Shown here one piece after another: positions 31,187 through 64,000 of a stretch of 64,000 bases of DNA. The stretch is taken from the NCBI GenBank assembly GCA_947495035.1, contig CANLXI010000021.1:62001-126000 (forward strand). Reading direction: 5' to 3'. A model generated the notes under the pieces. It had not been told where the DNA came from, ran no database searches, and was given only the letters and a program-made list of their open reading frames with translations. Source of the DNA: an uncultured Granulosicoccus sp. GTDB taxonomy: Bacteria > Pseudomonadota > Gammaproteobacteria > Granulosicoccales > Granulosicoccaceae. The first letter of the stretch is position 1, and each line of letters opens with the position of its first letter. Position numbers and translations under genes: made by a program.

Positions 31187-31211
31187 GATGCCGTTCTGTG
31201 TGAACGGCATC
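31187..31211 (-). terminator. Hairpin after the DUF1479 gene
   Basis: GATGCCGTTC (31187-31196) and GAACGGCATC (31202-31211) make a perfect 10-bp stem with a five-base loop, 36 bases past the DUF1479 stop on the minus strand. No U-tract follows, so it may be a weak terminator or an mRNA 3'-end stabiliser. Confidence 0.55.
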
Positions 31212-53846: not shown

Positions 53847-53940
53847 GGCTTGATGCCCAGCTCTTCTTGGGTCTTGAGGAGGCTAGATGCCCAGCTCTTC
53901 ATGGGTCTTGGGGGCTAGATGTCCAGCTCTTCGAGTTCAG
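53847..53940. repeat. Three tandem copies of the marR gene end
   Basis: Three copies, at 53847-53880, 53881-53912 and 53913-53940, share GGCTxGATGxCCAGCTCTTC with periods of 34 and 32 bases. The third contains the real end of the MarR-type gene (ELEELDI-stop on the minus strand). The first two would encode KTQEELGIK and KTHEELGI-stop. The rest of the 376-base gap (53539-53914) shows no gene I can support; a 126-codon open frame there lacks any family features. Confidence 0.8.
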
Positions 53941-54373
53941 TCAGCAGGTCCAGCAGAGTTTCGTATTTCTCTTCGCCGAGCGCCTGCTTGAAGGAAGCTG
54001 ATATCTGTGCTGATCTTTCATGGTTGTCGTGAATCAGCTGTTGGCCTTTGGCCGTGATGGCCAATGTCAGCCGTCGACGATCGCGCGTGTCAGTGGTCCG
54101 TGAGATGTACCCTTTCTCCAGCATGGAATGCGATATGCGGGTGAGACTGGGCAAGAGCAGGCAGGTTCGATGTGCAAGTCTGGAGGAATCCTGTGGCCCG
54201 AGTTCGGACAGAACGCGCAGGACACGCCATTGTTGTTCGGTGATATCCGTCTTCGACAGCATCTCCCGAAAGGGTGCCATCACCTTCTCGCGTGCTCGTA
54301 GCAGCACAATGGGCAGCGACCGGGCTGTAGGCGGTAGTGCAAGAGTGGATGGGTTCGTCTCGTCTCTGTTCAT
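53915..54373 (-). CDS. MarR-family regulator, HpaR-like
   Basis: This 152-residue winged-helix regulator has SLPIVLLRAREKVMAPFREMLSKTDITEQQWRVLRVLSELGPQDSSRLAHRTCLLLPSLTRISHSMLEKGYISRTTDTRDRRRLTLAITAKGQQLI. This is close to HpaR, the repressor of homoprotocatechuate catabolism. No aromatic-ring genes are present, so the target is more likely the upstream-neighbour molybdenum hydroxylase/cytochrome operon on the same strand or the gbcA-type gene on the other side. The gap to each is several hundred bases. Confidence 0.88.
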   Translation of the reverse strand: MNRDETNPSTLALPPTARSLPIVLLRAREKVMAPFREMLSKTDITEQQWRVLRVLSELGPQDSSRLAHRTCLLLPSLTRISHSMLEKGYISRTTDTRDRRRLTLAITAKGQQLIHDNHERSAQISASFKQALGEEKYETLLDLLTELEELDI

Positions 54374-56123
<1,750 letters not shown>

Positions 56124-56127
56124 GCCC

Positions 56128-57204
56128 ATGGATGATCTCGTTGCTTCAAACCGTCATGCCGTCTGGACTGACTCGGAAGAGCTTGAGTGCGTATCCGTAC
56201 TTCCCGAAGTGCCCAATACCGCAAGCTTTACCTTTCGAGCCGTATCGGGTGCCTTGTTCGATTTCCAGCCTGGTCAGTTCATGACGCTGGAGCTGCCGTT
56301 GCCCGATGGGGTCATTCATCGGACGTATACGATCTCTTCATCGCCGTCGCGACCTCGCTCCATTTCCATCACGGTCAAGGCGCAGCCGGACAGTATCGGT
56401 ACGCGCTGGATGCTGGATCACCTGGTGCCGGGAACCCGCATCAGGGCCATGGGACCCGCAGGCCAGTTCACTCTGCTGAACTATCCGGCCGAGAAGTATC
56501 TTTTCATCTCGGCGGGCTCCGGTATCACTCCCATGATGTCCATGACGACGTGGATGTTCGATCATGGAACGGAACCTGACATCGTCTTCATCAATTGCGC
56601 GCGGCGCCCATCGGAAATCCTGTTTCGCGGTCTGCTTGAGCACATGGCAACACGGTTACCGGGGCTGTACGTCAAGTGGGTGATCGAAGAGCCGGAACGA
56701 TTCATACCCTGGACCGGTTTTCAGGGACGCTTCAACCAGTTGTTACTGGGCCTTGTGGCACCGGATTATCTTGAGCGAGAGGTCTTCTGCTGCGGTCCGG
56801 AACCGTTCATGCACTCGGTGCGGGATGCGCTGAGCGGGCTGGGCTACGACATGGACCACTATCATCAGGAAAGCTTTCAGGCTCCTGTCGCCACCGAAGC
56901 CGAGATTCCGGAACTTGATGATGTCACGCCCGATGGCAGTATCGATGCAGAAATCGTTTTCGCACAGTCCCAGCGGACGGAACGCTGTACGCAAAACGAC
57001 ACGGTGCTGGCCGTGACACGTGCCTCGGGACTCAACATTCCCTCGGGTTGTACCTTCGGGGTATGTGGTACCTGCAGAATCAGAAAGCTCGAAGGGGAAG
57101 TGCACATGGTGCACAACGGTGGTATTTCCGAGGATGACATAGCCGAAGGTTACATTCTTGCCTGCTGTTCCTACCCGATGGGCAAGGTAACGGTTGACGT
57201 ATAG
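56128..57204 (+). CDS. gbcB: GbcB-like ferredoxin reductase with fused 2Fe-2S domain
   Basis: This 358-residue reductase delivers electrons from NAD(P)H to the Rieske oxygenase. It has an FAD-binding barrel (RTYTISSSPSRPRSISITVK), an NAD-binding domain (YLFISAGSGITPMMSM, FCCGPEPFMHSV) and a C-terminal plant-type ferredoxin domain with GCTFGVCGTCRIRKLEGEV and the distal cysteine pair in ILACCSYPMGK. The start is ATG 56128, five bases after the oxygenase stop. The two genes form one unit. Confidence 0.9.
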   Translation: MDDLVASNRHAVWTDSEELECVSVLPEVPNTASFTFRAVSGALFDFQPGQFMTLELPLPDGVIHRTYTISSSPSRPRSISITVKAQPDSIGTRWMLDHLVPGTRIRAMGPAGQFTLLNYPAEKYLFISAGSGITPMMSMTTWMFDHGTEPDIVFINCARRPSEILFRGLLEHMATRLPGLYVKWVIEEPERFIPWTGFQGRFNQLLLGLVAPDYLEREVFCCGPEPFMHSVRDALSGLGYDMDHYHQESFQAPVATEAEIPELDDVTPDGSIDAEIVFAQSQRTERCTQNDTVLAVTRASGLNIPSGCTFGVCGTCRIRKLEGEVHMVHNGGISEDDIAEGYILACCSYPMGKVTVDV

Positions 57205-58399: not shown

Positions 58400-58650
58400 G
58401 TCGTGAATCCGGATGATGTCTGCATGCCAGTGAGCACTCGACGGGTCTGATGTGCGACCCGGGTGTCCGGCAAGCTGTGTAGTGATCCTTACGGTTGCGG
58501 CAAGCGAGCGGATCTGCGCCTTGTTCGCAAAAGGCGTTAGCTCGGTCAGCAGATCTCCGGGGCCGATGTGTTAGTGTTTTCGATCAGGGCTTGCTCAGGC
58601 TTTGTGGCAGAGCAGGCATTCTCGACAACAGAACTCAGGGACATGAACGC

Positions 58651-59277
58651 ATGAAGCCAGCATCTCTTTGGATAGTGTCAGTGGCGGCATTGACTCTCGG
58701 CGCCTGTGCCACCTCGACGCCCGACGTGTCGGACACCAGCATGAGTTTCTTCATCACCAGTGCCAATCCCGGCAAGGGAGCAGACCTGGGCGGACTTGAC
58801 GGGGCTGATGCCTATTGCGGCGCTCTGGCCACTGCAGCGGGCGTCACGGGCAAGACATGGAAGGCCTATCTGTCCTCCAGTTCGGAAGATGCTCGCGATC
58901 GCATCGGTTCCGGCCCCTGGTACAACGCCAGCGGTGTCATGGTGGCATCCAGTGTCGAAAATCTGTTGGGAGACAGCAACAATCTGACGAAACAGACCTC
59001 AGTCAACGAGAATGGAGATATTGTCAATGGCCGTGGTGATGAGCCCAATCGTCATGACATTCTCACCGGCTCGGCGGCCAATGGTCGATCGACTGGCAGT
59101 CATTGTGAGGGCTGGACCAGCAGCGGGGAGGGCAGTGCAACCGTCGGGCATCACGACCGCACGGGGGGTGGGGATGATCCGACTTCCTGGAGCTCGGCGC
59201 ACAATTCACGCGGTTGCAGTATCGAGGCATTGCAGGCAACTGGCGGCGATGGACTCTTCTATTGCTTCGCGCAATAG
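58651..59277 (+). CDS. Endostatin/lectin-like secreted lipoprotein
   Basis: This 208-residue protein has a lipoprotein signal (LWIVSVAALTLGAC, lipobox LGAC). Its body, SFFITSANPGKGADLGGLDGADAYCGALATAAGVTGKTWKAYLSSSS, followed by ARDRIGSGPWYNASGVMVASSVENLLGD and ending in SRGCSIEALQATGGDGLFYCFAQ, is a family found in many bacteria and distantly like the endostatin/collagen XVIII C-type-lectin fold. Five cysteines, four of them past the lipobox, would form disulphides. Function is unknown; surface binding is a guess. It converges on the cyclase gene, with stop codons adjacent. Confidence 0.75.
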   Translation: MKPASLWIVSVAALTLGACATSTPDVSDTSMSFFITSANPGKGADLGGLDGADAYCGALATAAGVTGKTWKAYLSSSSEDARDRIGSGPWYNASGVMVASSVENLLGDSNNLTKQTSVNENGDIVNGRGDEPNRHDILTGSAANGRSTGSHCEGWTSSGEGSATVGHHDRTGGGDDPTSWSSAHNSRGCSIEALQATGGDGLFYCFAQ

Positions 59278-60972
59278 TCATTGTCCGACGGCTGGTGGGG
59301 TCAGGCTGACCTCCTGCAACAGTCTCAGGTCATCGATGATGATGATGTCGAGAGGTTTTCCGCGTCCACGGACATGAACCGTATGTCTGGGCCAGGTAGG
59401 ATGAAAATGTCCTGCCTGGCGTAGTGCCTGCTCCGAGACGATGAGTCCGCATTCGAATTCCTTGGTCAGGGCTTCCAGTCTGGCGGTGATATTGATGTTG
59501 TCGCCAAGAGCGGATACCGTCGGCGCGTCCGGTGGACCCATCGTCCCCACGATGGCATCGCCGCAATGAATACCGATACCGACTCTGAGTGGTTCCTCCA
59601 GTTCATCCGCCAGCCATTCACTGAGTTGCACCATTCTGCTCTGAATCTGCACGGCCCCAGCCAGCGCCTTGCGACAACCGTTGGCAAGATCACCATCCAG
59701 ACCATACAGTGCCATCAGTCCATCGCCGTTGAACGTGGCATAGTGTCCACCCGTGGCACGCAGGGCTTCGTCCAGCTGGATGAAGAACTGGTTGAGTATG
59801 AAGACAACGTCATAGGGAAGCTTCTGTTCGGCCAGGCGGGTAGAGCCGCGCAGATCCACGAACATGCAGGCAACCTTCTGTTCATGTCCCATGACACCCA
59901 CCGAGACGCGGGCGGCAGGTGCCGACACATCTGCCTGTAACAGGGGCGTGATGGTGATGTCCCGCTGTGGTTTCAGCTGGCAGGCCAGCCTGACGTTGGG
60001 GGCGGCTCTGACGCGTTGCAGGGCTCGACGTTCCAGTTCCTCGGGTTCCGGAAGACTCTGGTCGACATCGATGATGCGAACTCGACAGGTGGTGCAGCGG
60101 CCCCGTCCTCCGCAGATGGCGGTATGGGGAATGCCCGCCTCGCGCAGCGTTTCCAGAACCGTCTGTCCCTGTCGTGCGGGCAACTGCCTGCTGCTGGGTG
60201 TATGAGTGACGAAGAAGCCGCCGCGTTTTCTGTCCCTGTGGTTGCGCAGAGCCCGCATGAGCAGCACCGCGATGAGCAGCACGGCAAACAACCAGAGGAG
60301 TCCTTTCTCGGTCTGCATCAGCAGCTGGATCCGGTCCGGGTCGGCGCTGCTGATGGCCTGTCGAAACTCGATTATCGCAGGTGTGTCGGCAGGCAACTGC
60401 CGGCTTTCAACCCCGGCTCGCAGAAAGCCGAGAGCCGCCAACAGAGGAATGACGAGGCACAAGGGGTAGAGGATCGATTTCCAGCGTGAATAATCCGGCT
60501 TGTGCCGGAGCCAGAAGTGGATGCCGATGCACATGTGCGTCCACGCCAGGGTGAGCAGCAGGTATTGGCGAACGACTCCCGACGGATTGTTCCAGAGTCC
60601 TGATACCACGACCGTATAGTTTCTGTAGATATCGAGAAATTCGTAGGTTCCGCGGGTGCCGGCAACGTGTGCGAACAACAGGATCGGCAATGCCAGTGCC
60701 ATACCGATCTGCGTCAGGTTCCAGCCAGGCAGGCGCAGACTGCGTCGGCGGTACAAGGCAACGAACATCAGTCCGATGTGCACGATGAATGCGGTGTACA
60801 GCAGCAACTGCATCACGGGTATCGACCAGAACGCTGCCAGCGCGTTGCCCATGACATTCATGGCTGACAGGGAGATGATGCCGAGTCCGGCGTTGAGCAG
60901 GTGCAGGACGAGAAAGAAGGCGATGACCAGTCCGCTGGAGATTCGAAGGCGGTGTTCCTGTTTCGAGTTCAC
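59278..60972 (-). CDS. Membrane-anchored ferredoxin-adenylate cyclase fusion
   Basis: This 564-residue protein has three parts. Residues 1-245 contain about six hydrophobic segments with several histidines (VLHLLNAG, FIVHIGLMF, WTHMCIGIHFWLRH) that resemble b-type haem-binding cytochrome subunits. Residues 250-345 are a [2Fe-2S] ferredoxin domain (CGGRGRCTTCRVRI and RLACQL). Residues 360-550 are a class III cyclase with the two metal-binding aspartates (CMFVDLRGSTRLAE and FNGDGLMALYG) and the transition-state Asn/Arg in GDNINITARLEAL, so it should be active. It probably makes cAMP in response to redox or quinone state. Signal and product are inferred. Confidence 0.9.
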   Translation of the reverse strand: MNSKQEHRLRISSGLVIAFFLVLHLLNAGLGIISLSAMNVMGNALAAFWSIPVMQLLLYTAFIVHIGLMFVALYRRRSLRLPGWNLTQIGMALALPILLFAHVAGTRGTYEFLDIYRNYTVVVSGLWNNPSGVVRQYLLLTLAWTHMCIGIHFWLRHKPDYSRWKSILYPLCLVIPLLAALGFLRAGVESRQLPADTPAIIEFRQAISSADPDRIQLLMQTEKGLLWLFAVLLIAVLLMRALRNHRDRKRGGFFVTHTPSSRQLPARQGQTVLETLREAGIPHTAICGGRGRCTTCRVRIIDVDQSLPEPEELERRALQRVRAAPNVRLACQLKPQRDITITPLLQADVSAPAARVSVGVMGHEQKVACMFVDLRGSTRLAEQKLPYDVVFILNQFFIQLDEALRATGGHYATFNGDGLMALYGLDGDLANGCRKALAGAVQIQSRMVQLSEWLADELEEPLRVGIGIHCGDAIVGTMGPPDAPTVSALGDNINITARLEALTKEFECGLIVSEQALRQAGHFHPTWPRHTVHVRGRGKPLDIIIIDDLRLLQEVSLTPPAVGQ

Positions 60973-61586
60973 TGTTTCTCCGGCATGGCAAGGATCAATC
61001 GCGCAGGACTACAGGCGGGAACACCACGGCATGATGCCAGATTGTTCAAGGCTGCGGGTGAGGCCTTTGTCAGTGTGACACCGCCAGTGGTGCCGGTCTT
61101 GGCTGTCGGGTTCTGCCTGAGCTGTTCTGACCTATCTGTAGAGCAGCGATCGTCGGCAGTGCTGCAACGGGCTGACTCTTGCGAAGGTGTATTGCAATCT
61201 GCAGCGTGCTGGTCGGCGCAATGATCCCGACGATGGCCATCCGTTTTCGCGCAGGCGGAAGAAGGGGCTGAGCAAGATGTCGTAAGTCGGAGCCTTGTGT
61301 TGTCGCGTTGAGACTGTCATGAATGCTGGTCACGTCAGCTCAGGTTACAAGCGGGGTTTGCACGGTTTAGCAAGTGGAGTAGGCTGCCGTTATATGGAAC
61401 TGATTACTTGCGCCAAGTACCATTTTCGAAGCAAGGCAGGTTAAGATACACGCTGTCCCATCCAAGCGCAGCTCGATTCCGCCGCGGGTCGTGCAGCATC
61501 AACACACCACGATTTACCATGAGGAGCATCTCTTTGCCAATCTGGGGTCTAGTGCTGCGTTGCTCTACCTACCGAGGCGAGCAACC
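60973..61586. other. Intergenic region upstream of nqrA
   Basis: These 614 bases contain no gene I can support; the longest open frame (61070-61333, minus) has no family similarity. A weak promoter candidate, TTTAGC with TTATAT after 18 bases, lies around 61357-61386. No hairpin, tRNA or riboswitch fold was recognised. It should hold the nqr promoter. Confidence 0.4.
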
Positions 61587-62963
61587 ATGAGTTCGATAAC
61601 CATCGACAAGGGTCTTGATCTGCCTCTCGACGGCAAGCCCGAACAAACAATCCACGACGCAAGGCCGGTGACGGCAGTGGCCCTGACGGGTCGTGACTAC
61701 CTGGGTCTGCGTCCGACAATGGCAGTGGCAGAAGGTGACCATGTCACGCTTGGTCAGCCACTGTTTTCCGCCAAGCACGACGCAGCTGTCAAATTCACGG
61801 CACCCGGCTCGGGTGTGGTCGAATCCATCCATCGAGGAGCTCGTCGTGTCCTGCAATCGGTCGTCATCAGGTTGGACGCCGATGAAGAAATACCGACGCT
61901 GACCGATCCCGTGTCGCCTGACGAACTGTTCAGGCTCGAACCGCAAGTGGTTCGCGAGACACTGTGTCGTACCGGTCTCTGGACGGCATTCCGCACTCGA
62001 CCCTACAGCAAGATACCGCACTCCGACTCTGCAGCAGATGCGATCTTCGTGACGGCCATGGATACCAATCCCCTGGCGGCCGATCCTCAGGTTGTCATCG
62101 CCGAGCAGGCTGACGCCTTCGGTCATGGTCTGCAGGTGCTGACCAAGCTGACCGACGGCAAGGTGCATGTCTGCAAGGCCGTCGGTGCCAATGTACCTGT
62201 TCCGGAAAACCAGCCATCGACACACGGTGGTGGAATTCACAGCAGTGAATTTGCCGGTCCACATCCGGCCGGTCTGCCGGGTACACACATACATCACCTG
62301 CATCCGGTCAACGAATCCCGCACGGTCTGGCACCTGGGTTATCAGGATGTCATTGCCATTGGCAAGTTGTTCACCACTGGCAAGCTCTGGACAGAGCGTG
62401 TCATTGCGCTGGCCGGCCCGGTAGTCACGAAGCCGCGGCTGCTGCGGACACGCCTGGGTGCCAGTACGGAAGAACTGGTCGCTGATTCACTCGAAAAAAC
62501 CGAATGCCGGATCATTACCGGTTCTGTTCTCTCCGGTCGTCGCGCTGCCAATCAGACGGCCTATCTGGGTCGTTATCACACGCAGTTGTCGGTGCTGGCC
62601 GAAGGCCGCAAGCGCGAGTTGCTGGGATGGATCAACCCGAAAAGCAACAAGTTCTCCATCACCAATGTGCTGTTCTCCAGCTTCAATCGAGAACGAGCCG
62701 ACTTCGAGTTTCACACGTCCACCAACGGCAGTCCGCGGGCCATGGTACCCACCGGCAATTTCGAACGCGTCATGCCGCTGGATATCCTGCCGACACAGCT
62801 GCTGCGTGCGCTGCTGGTGAGTGACACGGACATGGCGCAGAAGCTGGGCTGTATGGAGCTGGACGAAGAAGACCTCGCATTATGTGCCTTCGTGTGTTCC
62901 GGAAAATACGACTACGGGCCGGTACTGCGCAGTAACCTCGAACAGATCGAGAAGGAAGGCTGA
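61587..62963 (+). CDS. nqrA: Na+-translocating NADH:quinone reductase subunit A
   Basis: This 458-residue membrane-associated subunit of Na+-NQR has the family start [21 protein letters not shown], the lipoyl-like [31 protein letters not shown] and the conserved [11 protein letters not shown]-type and [13 protein letters not shown] segments; here the first reads [16 protein letters not shown]. It binds quinone. ATG 61587 matches homologues. nqrB follows after four bases, so the full nqrABCDEF operon is expected to continue past the window. It suggests a sodium-rich, marine-type lifestyle. Confidence 0.96.
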
Positions 62964-62967
62964 TACT

Positions 62968-64000
62968 ATGTCATCGATGCGACGCTGGCTGGACCGCGTA
63001 CACCCGCTCTTTGCAAAGGGTGGTCAGTACGAGAAGTACTATGCCTTGTACGAGATGGTGGATACATTTCTGTATACCCCATCCGATGTAACCCGAACCT
63101 CACCTCATGTGCGCGATGCGATCGACCTCAAACGGGTCATGAGCTATGTCGTGCTTGCCACCTTGCCGTGCATCTTTGCCGGCTTGTGGAACGTCGGCTA
63201 TCAGGCCAACCTGGCCATGGCAGACATGGGTGTTGCCAACGCCGAAGGCTGGCGAGGGGCCGTGCTTGGTTTGCTGGGTGTCGACTACGACCCCTCGAGC
63301 CTCTATGACAGCTTTCTCCACGGTCTGATGTATTTTCTGCCGATCTACATCGTCACGCTGGCGGCGGGTGGATTCTGGGAAGTCACCTTTGCTGCCGTGC
63401 GCAATCACGAAGTCAACGAAGGCTTTCTCGTGACATCCATGCTGTACGCCCTGATACTGCCCCCGACCGTGCCGTTGTGGCAGGCGGCTCTGGGTATCTC
63501 CTTCGGCGTCGTGATCGGCAAGGAAGTCTTTGGCGGTACCGGCAAGAACTTCCTGAATCCGGCATTGACCGGACGTGCTTTCCTGTTCTTTGCCTATCCG
63601 GCGCAGATGTCCGGAGACGCGGTCTGGACTGCAGTCGACGGCTTCAGTGGTGCCACTGCCCTGAGCCTCGGCGCGCAGGGTGGTATGGAGGCAATCCGTG
63701 CCGGTGGCATCGAATGGATGGATGCCTTCTTCGGTTCCATTCAGGGTTCCATCGGTGCAACATCCACACTGGCCTGTCTGCTGGGCGCCGCGTTCCTGAT
63801 CTATACCCGCATTGCATCGTGGCGCATCATTCTGGGTGTCTTTCTCGGCATGGTGGGCACCAGTGTCCTGCTGAACCTGATTGGCAGTGATACCAACCCG
63901 ATGTTCGGCATGCCCTGGTACTGGCACCTGGTGGTGGGTGGTTTTGCGTTCGGCATGGTCTTCATGGCAACGGATCCAGTCAGCGCATCAATGACCAATA
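62968..64000 (+). CDS. nqrB: Na+-translocating NADH:quinone reductase subunit B, 5' part
   Basis: The gene starts at ATG 62968 and is cut by the window end after about 344 codons; the family length is near 410. The visible part has the N-terminus [33 protein letters not shown], several membrane helices, [24 protein letters not shown] and the flavinylation motif [10 protein letters not shown]. The Thr of SGAT, near residue 230, would carry covalent FMN. It ends within [13 protein letters not shown], the last shared region before the final helices. Confidence 0.95.

Follow-up and report, generated by a model that had tools for sequence, protein, structure and literature searches.

Architecture of the cyclase gene

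The window, i.e., the whole 64,000-nucleotide stretch of DNA analysed here, carries a gene for a protein of 564 residues in which a membrane anchor is followed by a [2Fe-2S] ferredoxin domain and then by a class III nucleotidyl cyclase domain (Table 1). The open reading frame, the Pfam matches and the hydropathy profile all bear out the predicted fusion of a histidine-bearing membrane domain, a ferredoxin and a cyclase in one protein. The host draft genome comprises 7.16 Mb in 159 contigs (completeness 99.03, contamination 6.89). Against two orthologues, the dN/dS of the cyclase gene is 0.117 and 0.121 (synonymous change was not estimable against a third, with 63% identity), so that the coding of this reading frame is not a product of chance and the gene is under purifying selection.

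Table 1. Features of the cyclase gene and of its divergent neighbours, in window coordinates
Feature	Position	Strand	Evidence
cyaC-type gene, 564 aa, GTG start	59278..60972	-	single ORF, 564 codons
Membrane anchor, residues 7-247, read as six hydrophobic helices	60232..60954	-	hydropathy of the protein and family mean
His24 codon, candidate haem ligand, helix 1	60901..60903	-	73/73 rows with a letter
His65 codon, candidate haem ligand, helix 2	60778..60780	-	73/73 rows with a letter
His102 codon, candidate haem ligand, helix 3	60667..60669	-	73/73 rows with a letter
His146 codon, candidate haem ligand, helix 4	60535..60537	-	74/74 rows
[2Fe-2S] ferredoxin domain Fer2, residues 256-336	59965..60207	-	Pfam PF00111, E 1.9e-11
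Candidate cluster cysteines C287, C293, C296, C331 in Fer2		-	74/74 rows
Class III nucleotidyl cyclase domain Guanylate_cyc, residues 363-540	59353..59886	-	Pfam PF00211, E 3.3e-16
Metal Asp373/Asp417, with Asn494 and Arg498, in the cyclase domain		-	74/74 rows
Thr413-Phe414-Asn415 (Thr at the purine-selecting Lys site)	59728..59736	-	alignments to solved cyclases, census
Ser487, second base-selecting position	59512..59514	-	Thr in 56/74 rows
nqrA and start of nqrB, divergent neighbours, context only	61491..63999	+	Pfam NQRA domains, NQR2_RnfD_RnfE

The six helices, all before residue 250, are a reading of hydropathy only, and a hydrophobic stretch at residues 28-59 blurs the boundary between helices 1 and 2. 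Because loops 76-83, 157-163, and 242-252 are rich in Lys/Arg (3, 2, and 5 residues, compared with 0, 1, and 2 in the other loops), the topology suggests that both termini of the protein are cytoplasmic.

The similarity of the anchor to diheme succinate dehydrogenase anchors is weak. The anchors compared were that of the window and those of 48 of the 72 references. Of these 49, 15 are recognised at E up to 0.1 by TIGR02046, the profile of the SdhC b558 family (best 1.3e-5), and the window anchor scores E 0.016 and 14.8 bits against a curated cut-off of 96; Pfam Sdh_cyt matches 4 of the 49 (best 0.0045) and gives no match to the window anchor at E up to 0.1. A family profile compared with the PDB retrieved one chain at E up to 1, SdhC 6lum_C at 0.35, and a search for SdhC b558 in 150 genomes of the phylum yielded matches in two, each of them weak and incomplete. 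An AlphaFold model built from four sequences (the window protein and three orthologues, L018-L020) has a mean pLDDT of 49, too poor for haem geometry.

Conservation and distribution of the family

The family alignment comprises 74 rows, the window and 73 loci, 72 of which are also aligned over the anchor, one row being a fragment. Since the rows are the best-scoring loci returned, the sample leans to close relatives. Within this best-scoring sample, H24, H65, and H102 are found in all 73 rows with a letter at these positions and H146 in all 74, in keeping with the histidine-bearing membrane domain of the original prediction; no less strictly kept, each in 74 of 74 rows, are C287, C293, C296, and C331 of the ferredoxin domain and D373, D417, N494, and R498 of the cyclase domain.

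Outside the genus, the order of the three domains and the alignment are shared at 35-48% identity. Copies are present in 8 of the 27 sampled genomes of the genus at E up to 1e-40, with the own genome counted and one of the eight (G016) encoding solely a paralogue of the K type, i.e., with lysine at position 413. The phylum sample contains relatives in 51 of 398 genomes at the same threshold (own included, seven matching the protein only in part) and the class sample in 4 of 369 at E up to 1e-60 (own included). In the class of G306, relatives occur in 78 of 289 sampled genomes at E up to 1e-60, including four where just part of the protein is matched; this class is probably Alphaproteobacteria, because the G306 copy pairs with that of Rhizobium etli in the tree. 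A relative with less than 60% identity was detected in 166 of 72,556 plasmid records, 142 of these from Rhizobium, and the viral contigs scanned contained no relative.

An altered base-selecting pocket

According to the accessible part of PMC4215837, the base-selecting pair is Lys-Asp in adenylate cyclases and Glu-Gly in Cya2. Alignments with five solved class III cyclases, gap-free around the sites concerned, pair Thr413 of the window protein with Lys in 6fht, 1wc0, 1wc1, and 3r5g and with Glu in 2w01; the counterpart of Ser487 is Thr in 1wc0, 1wc1, and 3r5g and Gly in the other two. The best PDB match of the protein is 2w01 (E 8.6e-18), which we take to be Cya2. The original prediction credited the cyclase with all catalytic residues, and this holds for both metal aspartates and for the Asn/Arg pair but not for the pocket, where Thr413 replaces the purine-selecting lysine and Ser487 is the partner residue. 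Because an ATP-specific adenylate cyclase combines that lysine with an Asp or Thr partner, we file the protein as a CyaC-type cyclase and not as an established adenylate cyclase; nor does it have, with Thr413, the Glu that marks class III guanylate cyclases at the lysine position.

Across the 74 rows, position 413 is occupied by K in 47, Q in 17, T in 7, and S, N, and A in 1 each, and position 487 by T in 56, S in 17, and Q in 1. All 47 rows with K413 have Ile or Leu two positions downstream, at 415, whereas neither these two nor Val occupies 415 in 19 of the 27 rows without the lysine. In a tree of 73 rows from which six pocket columns had been removed, the window belongs to a clade of 17 rows (support 100/99) that lacks K altogether (Q 8, T 7, S 1, N 1), and the eight rows with T or S form one group (100/99), all from the window's genus; the label K requires three changes on this tree. 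The genus also has a K-L-T paralogue (L015, L017), and one genome, G023, encodes both K-type and altered-type forms. The K-type paralogue of G023 (L063:7227-10074) adjoins a gene of the phage integrase family and may have been acquired through a mobile element. Outside the window's clade, further lineages (L043, L044, L047, L048, and L050; L046 and L049) have Gln at the lysine position together with Val or Ile at 415. In L054, on a plasmid of Azospirillum argentinense, the base-selecting pair is Ala and Gln, and a divergent gene for a Crp/Fnr-family regulator adjoins the cyclase gene.

How unusual such a pocket is can be gauged from the own genome, for which a census of cyclase domains started from 15 Pfam matches, with L124 left out. 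At the lysine position, the 13 other distinct domains have K in 7, Q in 2, N in 2, R in 1, E in 1, and T in none, the most distant of these domains, two of them lacking the first metal Asp, being weakly aligned. Given that these domains often lack the lysine (6 of 13), the rarity of the non-Lys pocket is lowered and we regard it as moderately unusual: loss of the lysine alone is not strange, and the T-N-S set in an otherwise strictly kept redox family is noteworthy. On contig C34 of the same genome (57564-59212, L111/L112), two cyclase domains lie within 2 kb on opposite strands, one with a Cya2-like, guanylate-type Glu-Gly pair and the other with Gln-Thr. In the literature searched, which mostly excluded subscription papers, we found no report of an altered pocket in the CyaC-type family.

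The co-occurrence of K413 with Ile or Leu at 415, the lysine-free clade to which the window belongs, and the coexistence of the K-L-T and altered forms in the genus and in G023, which would fit a division of labour, all lend some weight to a different product of the same redox machine. Here, the T413/N415/S487 pocket would accept GTP or a pyrimidine triphosphate, or be promiscuous, and the messenger would not be cAMP. Nevertheless, we consider this unlikely: the guanylate-type Glu is absent from all 74 rows, Gln at this position is also seen in two of the further cyclase domains that this genome encodes, and Gln in place of the lysine is compatible with ATP in the mycobacterial Rv0386. Profiles of the Pycsar cyclase PycC do match the window cyclase domain (best E 2.7e-15), although any class III cyclase might give such a match, and membership in a Pycsar system was rejected since no Pycsar-type effector was detected among the seven scanned neighbours in the window. 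The accessible portions of PMC11224242 and PMC4886424 contain neither the base-selecting residues of PycC nor a Thr-Ser pair. A cyclase domain that is dead or very weak, leaving the protein as a redox-dependent binding partner, is quite improbable; the lysine is lost, and exchanges of substrate-binding residues often lower the activity rather than convert it (PMC4215837, accessible part), but metal aspartates and an Asn/Arg pair kept in every row, under strong purifying selection, are hard to square with such a loss.

Genomic neighbourhood

The seven neighbours scanned in the window are nqrA, nqrB, a DUF1554-like gene, and genes for a DUF3833 protein, a chalcone-isomerase-like protein, a MarR regulator, and a Rieske oxygenase, with no LysR or TetR gene among them. 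The quinone link originally drawn from the nearby nqr genes is weak: nqrA and nqrB are indeed present, divergent from the cyclase gene, and also lie divergently near the ~80%-identical copies in both other genomes with such copies (~3 kb away in G012 and ~0.4 kb in G024), but nqrAB was not found in the stretches, several on short contigs, around five copies with 58-63% identity or two K-type paralogues. A conserved partnership with nqr was accordingly rejected, the synteny being confined to the closest relatives.

On the other side, a gene for a DUF1554/endostatin-like protein (58648-59277, + strand; both Pfam matches below the cut-off) converges on the cyclase gene without a gap, ending one base before its stop codon, and holds this place in the two closest relatives as well. 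Farther away lie the MarR regulator (53915-54373) and the Rieske ring-hydroxylating oxygenase (54894-56123), the latter followed by an open reading frame (56116-57204) whose translation reads like an FNR/ferredoxin reductase; perhaps, and this is a guess, the two form a pair of the glycine-betaine-demethylase type.

A partner gene conserved in the genus was sought among ten adjacent genes at five altered-type loci and one K-type locus. These genes encode GntR, an EamA transporter, an epimerase, a glycosyltransferase, a radical SAM protein, and an integrase, and three have no match. The EamA gene alone occurs more than once, next to the near-copies L058 and L059, and the idea of a conserved partner was dropped. 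No CRP-type box (TGTGA-N6-TCACA, at most one mismatch) is present near the gene, and the single one in the window, at 31199, compares with 2.81 expected by chance. The genome encodes 19 matches to cNMP-binding domains, and possible receivers of a cyclic nucleotide therefore exist.

Discussion

Here, we examined a three-domain protein that had been put forward as a new kind of sensor, in an arrangement with no measured function. Neither claim survives comparison with the literature. The architecture was described in 2016: in its accessible part, PMC4821796 reports a cluster 1 of 30 class IIIb cyclases from alpha- and betaproteobacteria, e.g., Rhodopseudomonas palustris Q132R4, in which a ferredoxin separates the 6TM anchor from the cyclase, four histidines have a precise spacing, and two haems were predicted. 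Furthermore, Sinorhizobium meliloti CyaC (SMc01818) has been reported, in the accessible part of PMC10463352, to possess a 6TM domain that binds two haem B, with ubiquinone oxidising or reducing the haem and thereby affecting the cyclase activity; a figure legend in the same source assigns it a [2Fe-2S] cluster and activation once quinones have oxidised it, and the text, citing a 2019 paper, refers to a diheme, quinone-responsive adenylate cyclase. The accessible parts of PMC9552081 and PMC13259868 agree with this account. Because the idea of a redox-to-cyclic-nucleotide switch was thus already reported for CyaC, the main gain of our analysis is a correction. The mechanism is not new; the variation in the base pocket is real and can be tested. 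The 2019 work of Wissig reportedly found that haem and activity are lost when the signature histidines of CyaC are mutated, and guanylate cyclase activity of CyaC was reportedly not detectable.

The cyaC gene of S. meliloti is part of a LysR-cyaC-TetR set, SMc01817-01818-01819 (PMC10463352, accessible part). Locus L052 of Sinorhizobium sp. K101, whose alignment covers 95% of the window protein with ~36% identity, likewise has a LysR gene on one side of the cyaC-type gene and a TetR gene on the other, and we use it as a stand-in for S. meliloti CyaC because the gene set is the same.

The window protein belongs to the CyaC-type family, with a six-helix anchor bearing four histidines, Fer2 in between, and a class III cyclase with the metal Asp pair and Asn/Arg, and it is probably a quinone/redox-sensing membrane nucleotide cyclase of this type. 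This reading is favoured by the four histidines and four cysteines kept across the family, the gene set of L052, the data on CyaC, the purifying selection, and the 19 cNMP-binding matches, and is opposed by the absent lysine (T413, N415, S487), the sub-threshold match to SdhC, and the lack of a LysR/TetR neighbour. The anchor would bind two haem B via His24, His65, His102, and His146 of helices 1-4, as in the diheme succinate/fumarate:quinone oxidoreductases; the quinone pool would oxidise or reduce these haems, and electrons would equilibrate between them and the [2Fe-2S] cluster, held by the ferredoxin domain immediately on the inner side of the membrane. The resulting redox change would alter the homodimeric class III cyclase, with the cyclic nucleotide made mainly when the pool is oxidised. 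We infer haem and cluster binding by this copy, the direction of the switch, and cAMP as the product: the invariant candidate ligands and the characterised relative, CyaC, point to the redox input, and the intact metal and transition-state residues to a cyclic-nucleotide output. Homology to CyaC thus supports the originally proposed route from a quinol or haem through the Fe-S cluster to the cyclase, if not its novelty. The product is probably still cAMP; however, this is the weakest step of the explanation because the ATP-selecting lysine is Thr413, and with the nucleotide specificity uncertain, cAMP is less secure than had been claimed. An anchor that acts as a lipid or small-ligand receptor, a function proposed for other six-helix cyclase anchors (PMC4821796, accessible part), or that is purely structural, with the ferredoxin off any quinone electron path, is very improbable despite the weak similarity to SdhC, given the precedent of CyaC and the four intramembrane histidines and four cysteines invariant in the sample, which ligand binding alone does not explain.

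The CyaC-type family is widespread, and part of it lacks the ATP-selecting residue. It is a speculative and, on balance, unlikely proposition that one clade has rebuilt its base pocket (Gln, Thr, Ser, or Asn for Lys; Asn, Thr, or Glu for Ile) while keeping the redox input, so that the quinone state is linked to some cyclic nucleotide that is not cAMP, and that a canonical and an altered redox cyclase operate together in at least one genome of the Granulosicoccus type, G023. Should the altered members make another nucleotide, an entire clade would be misnamed as adenylate cyclases, and there would be a second messenger linked to redox state; should their product still be cAMP, they would offer a natural test of base choice by class III cyclases without the lysine.

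Relationship to known systems

The b558 anchors of SdhC/FrdC consist of five helices, whereas the window anchor has six, lacks a dehydrogenase partner, and lies far below the curated cut-off of the family, the profile similarity being weak. What the two have in common is four intramembrane histidines, stated for SdhC/FrdC in the accessible part of PMC4821796, and with the window anchor below the SdhC cut-off, the claim that it works like SdhC rests on these histidines and on the precedent of CyaC. Guanylate cyclases of the Cya2 type and the Pycsar PycC share with the window protein a class III cyclase domain, with a Glu-Gly pair in Cya2 (PMC4215837, accessible part) as opposed to Thr-Ser in the window. 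Cluster 1, by its description in the accessible part of PMC4821796, has the 6TM anchor, the ferredoxin, the class III cyclase, and the four spaced histidines, but it is an alpha- and betaproteobacterial set, whereas the window protein comes from a Granulosicoccus-type genome and has a changed base pocket.

CyaC (SMc01818) itself is compared here via its stand-in L052. The CyaC and L052 genes are flanked by LysR and TetR genes, whereas the window gene adjoins nqrAB in a Granulosicoccus-type genome, with neither regulator among the seven scanned neighbours; and in the pocket, L052 has K/I/T where the window has T413/N415/S487. Regardless of these differences, CyaC and the window protein share the six-helix anchor, the [2Fe-2S] ferredoxin domain, and the C-terminal class III cyclase, and all four histidines and all four cysteines are present in L052.
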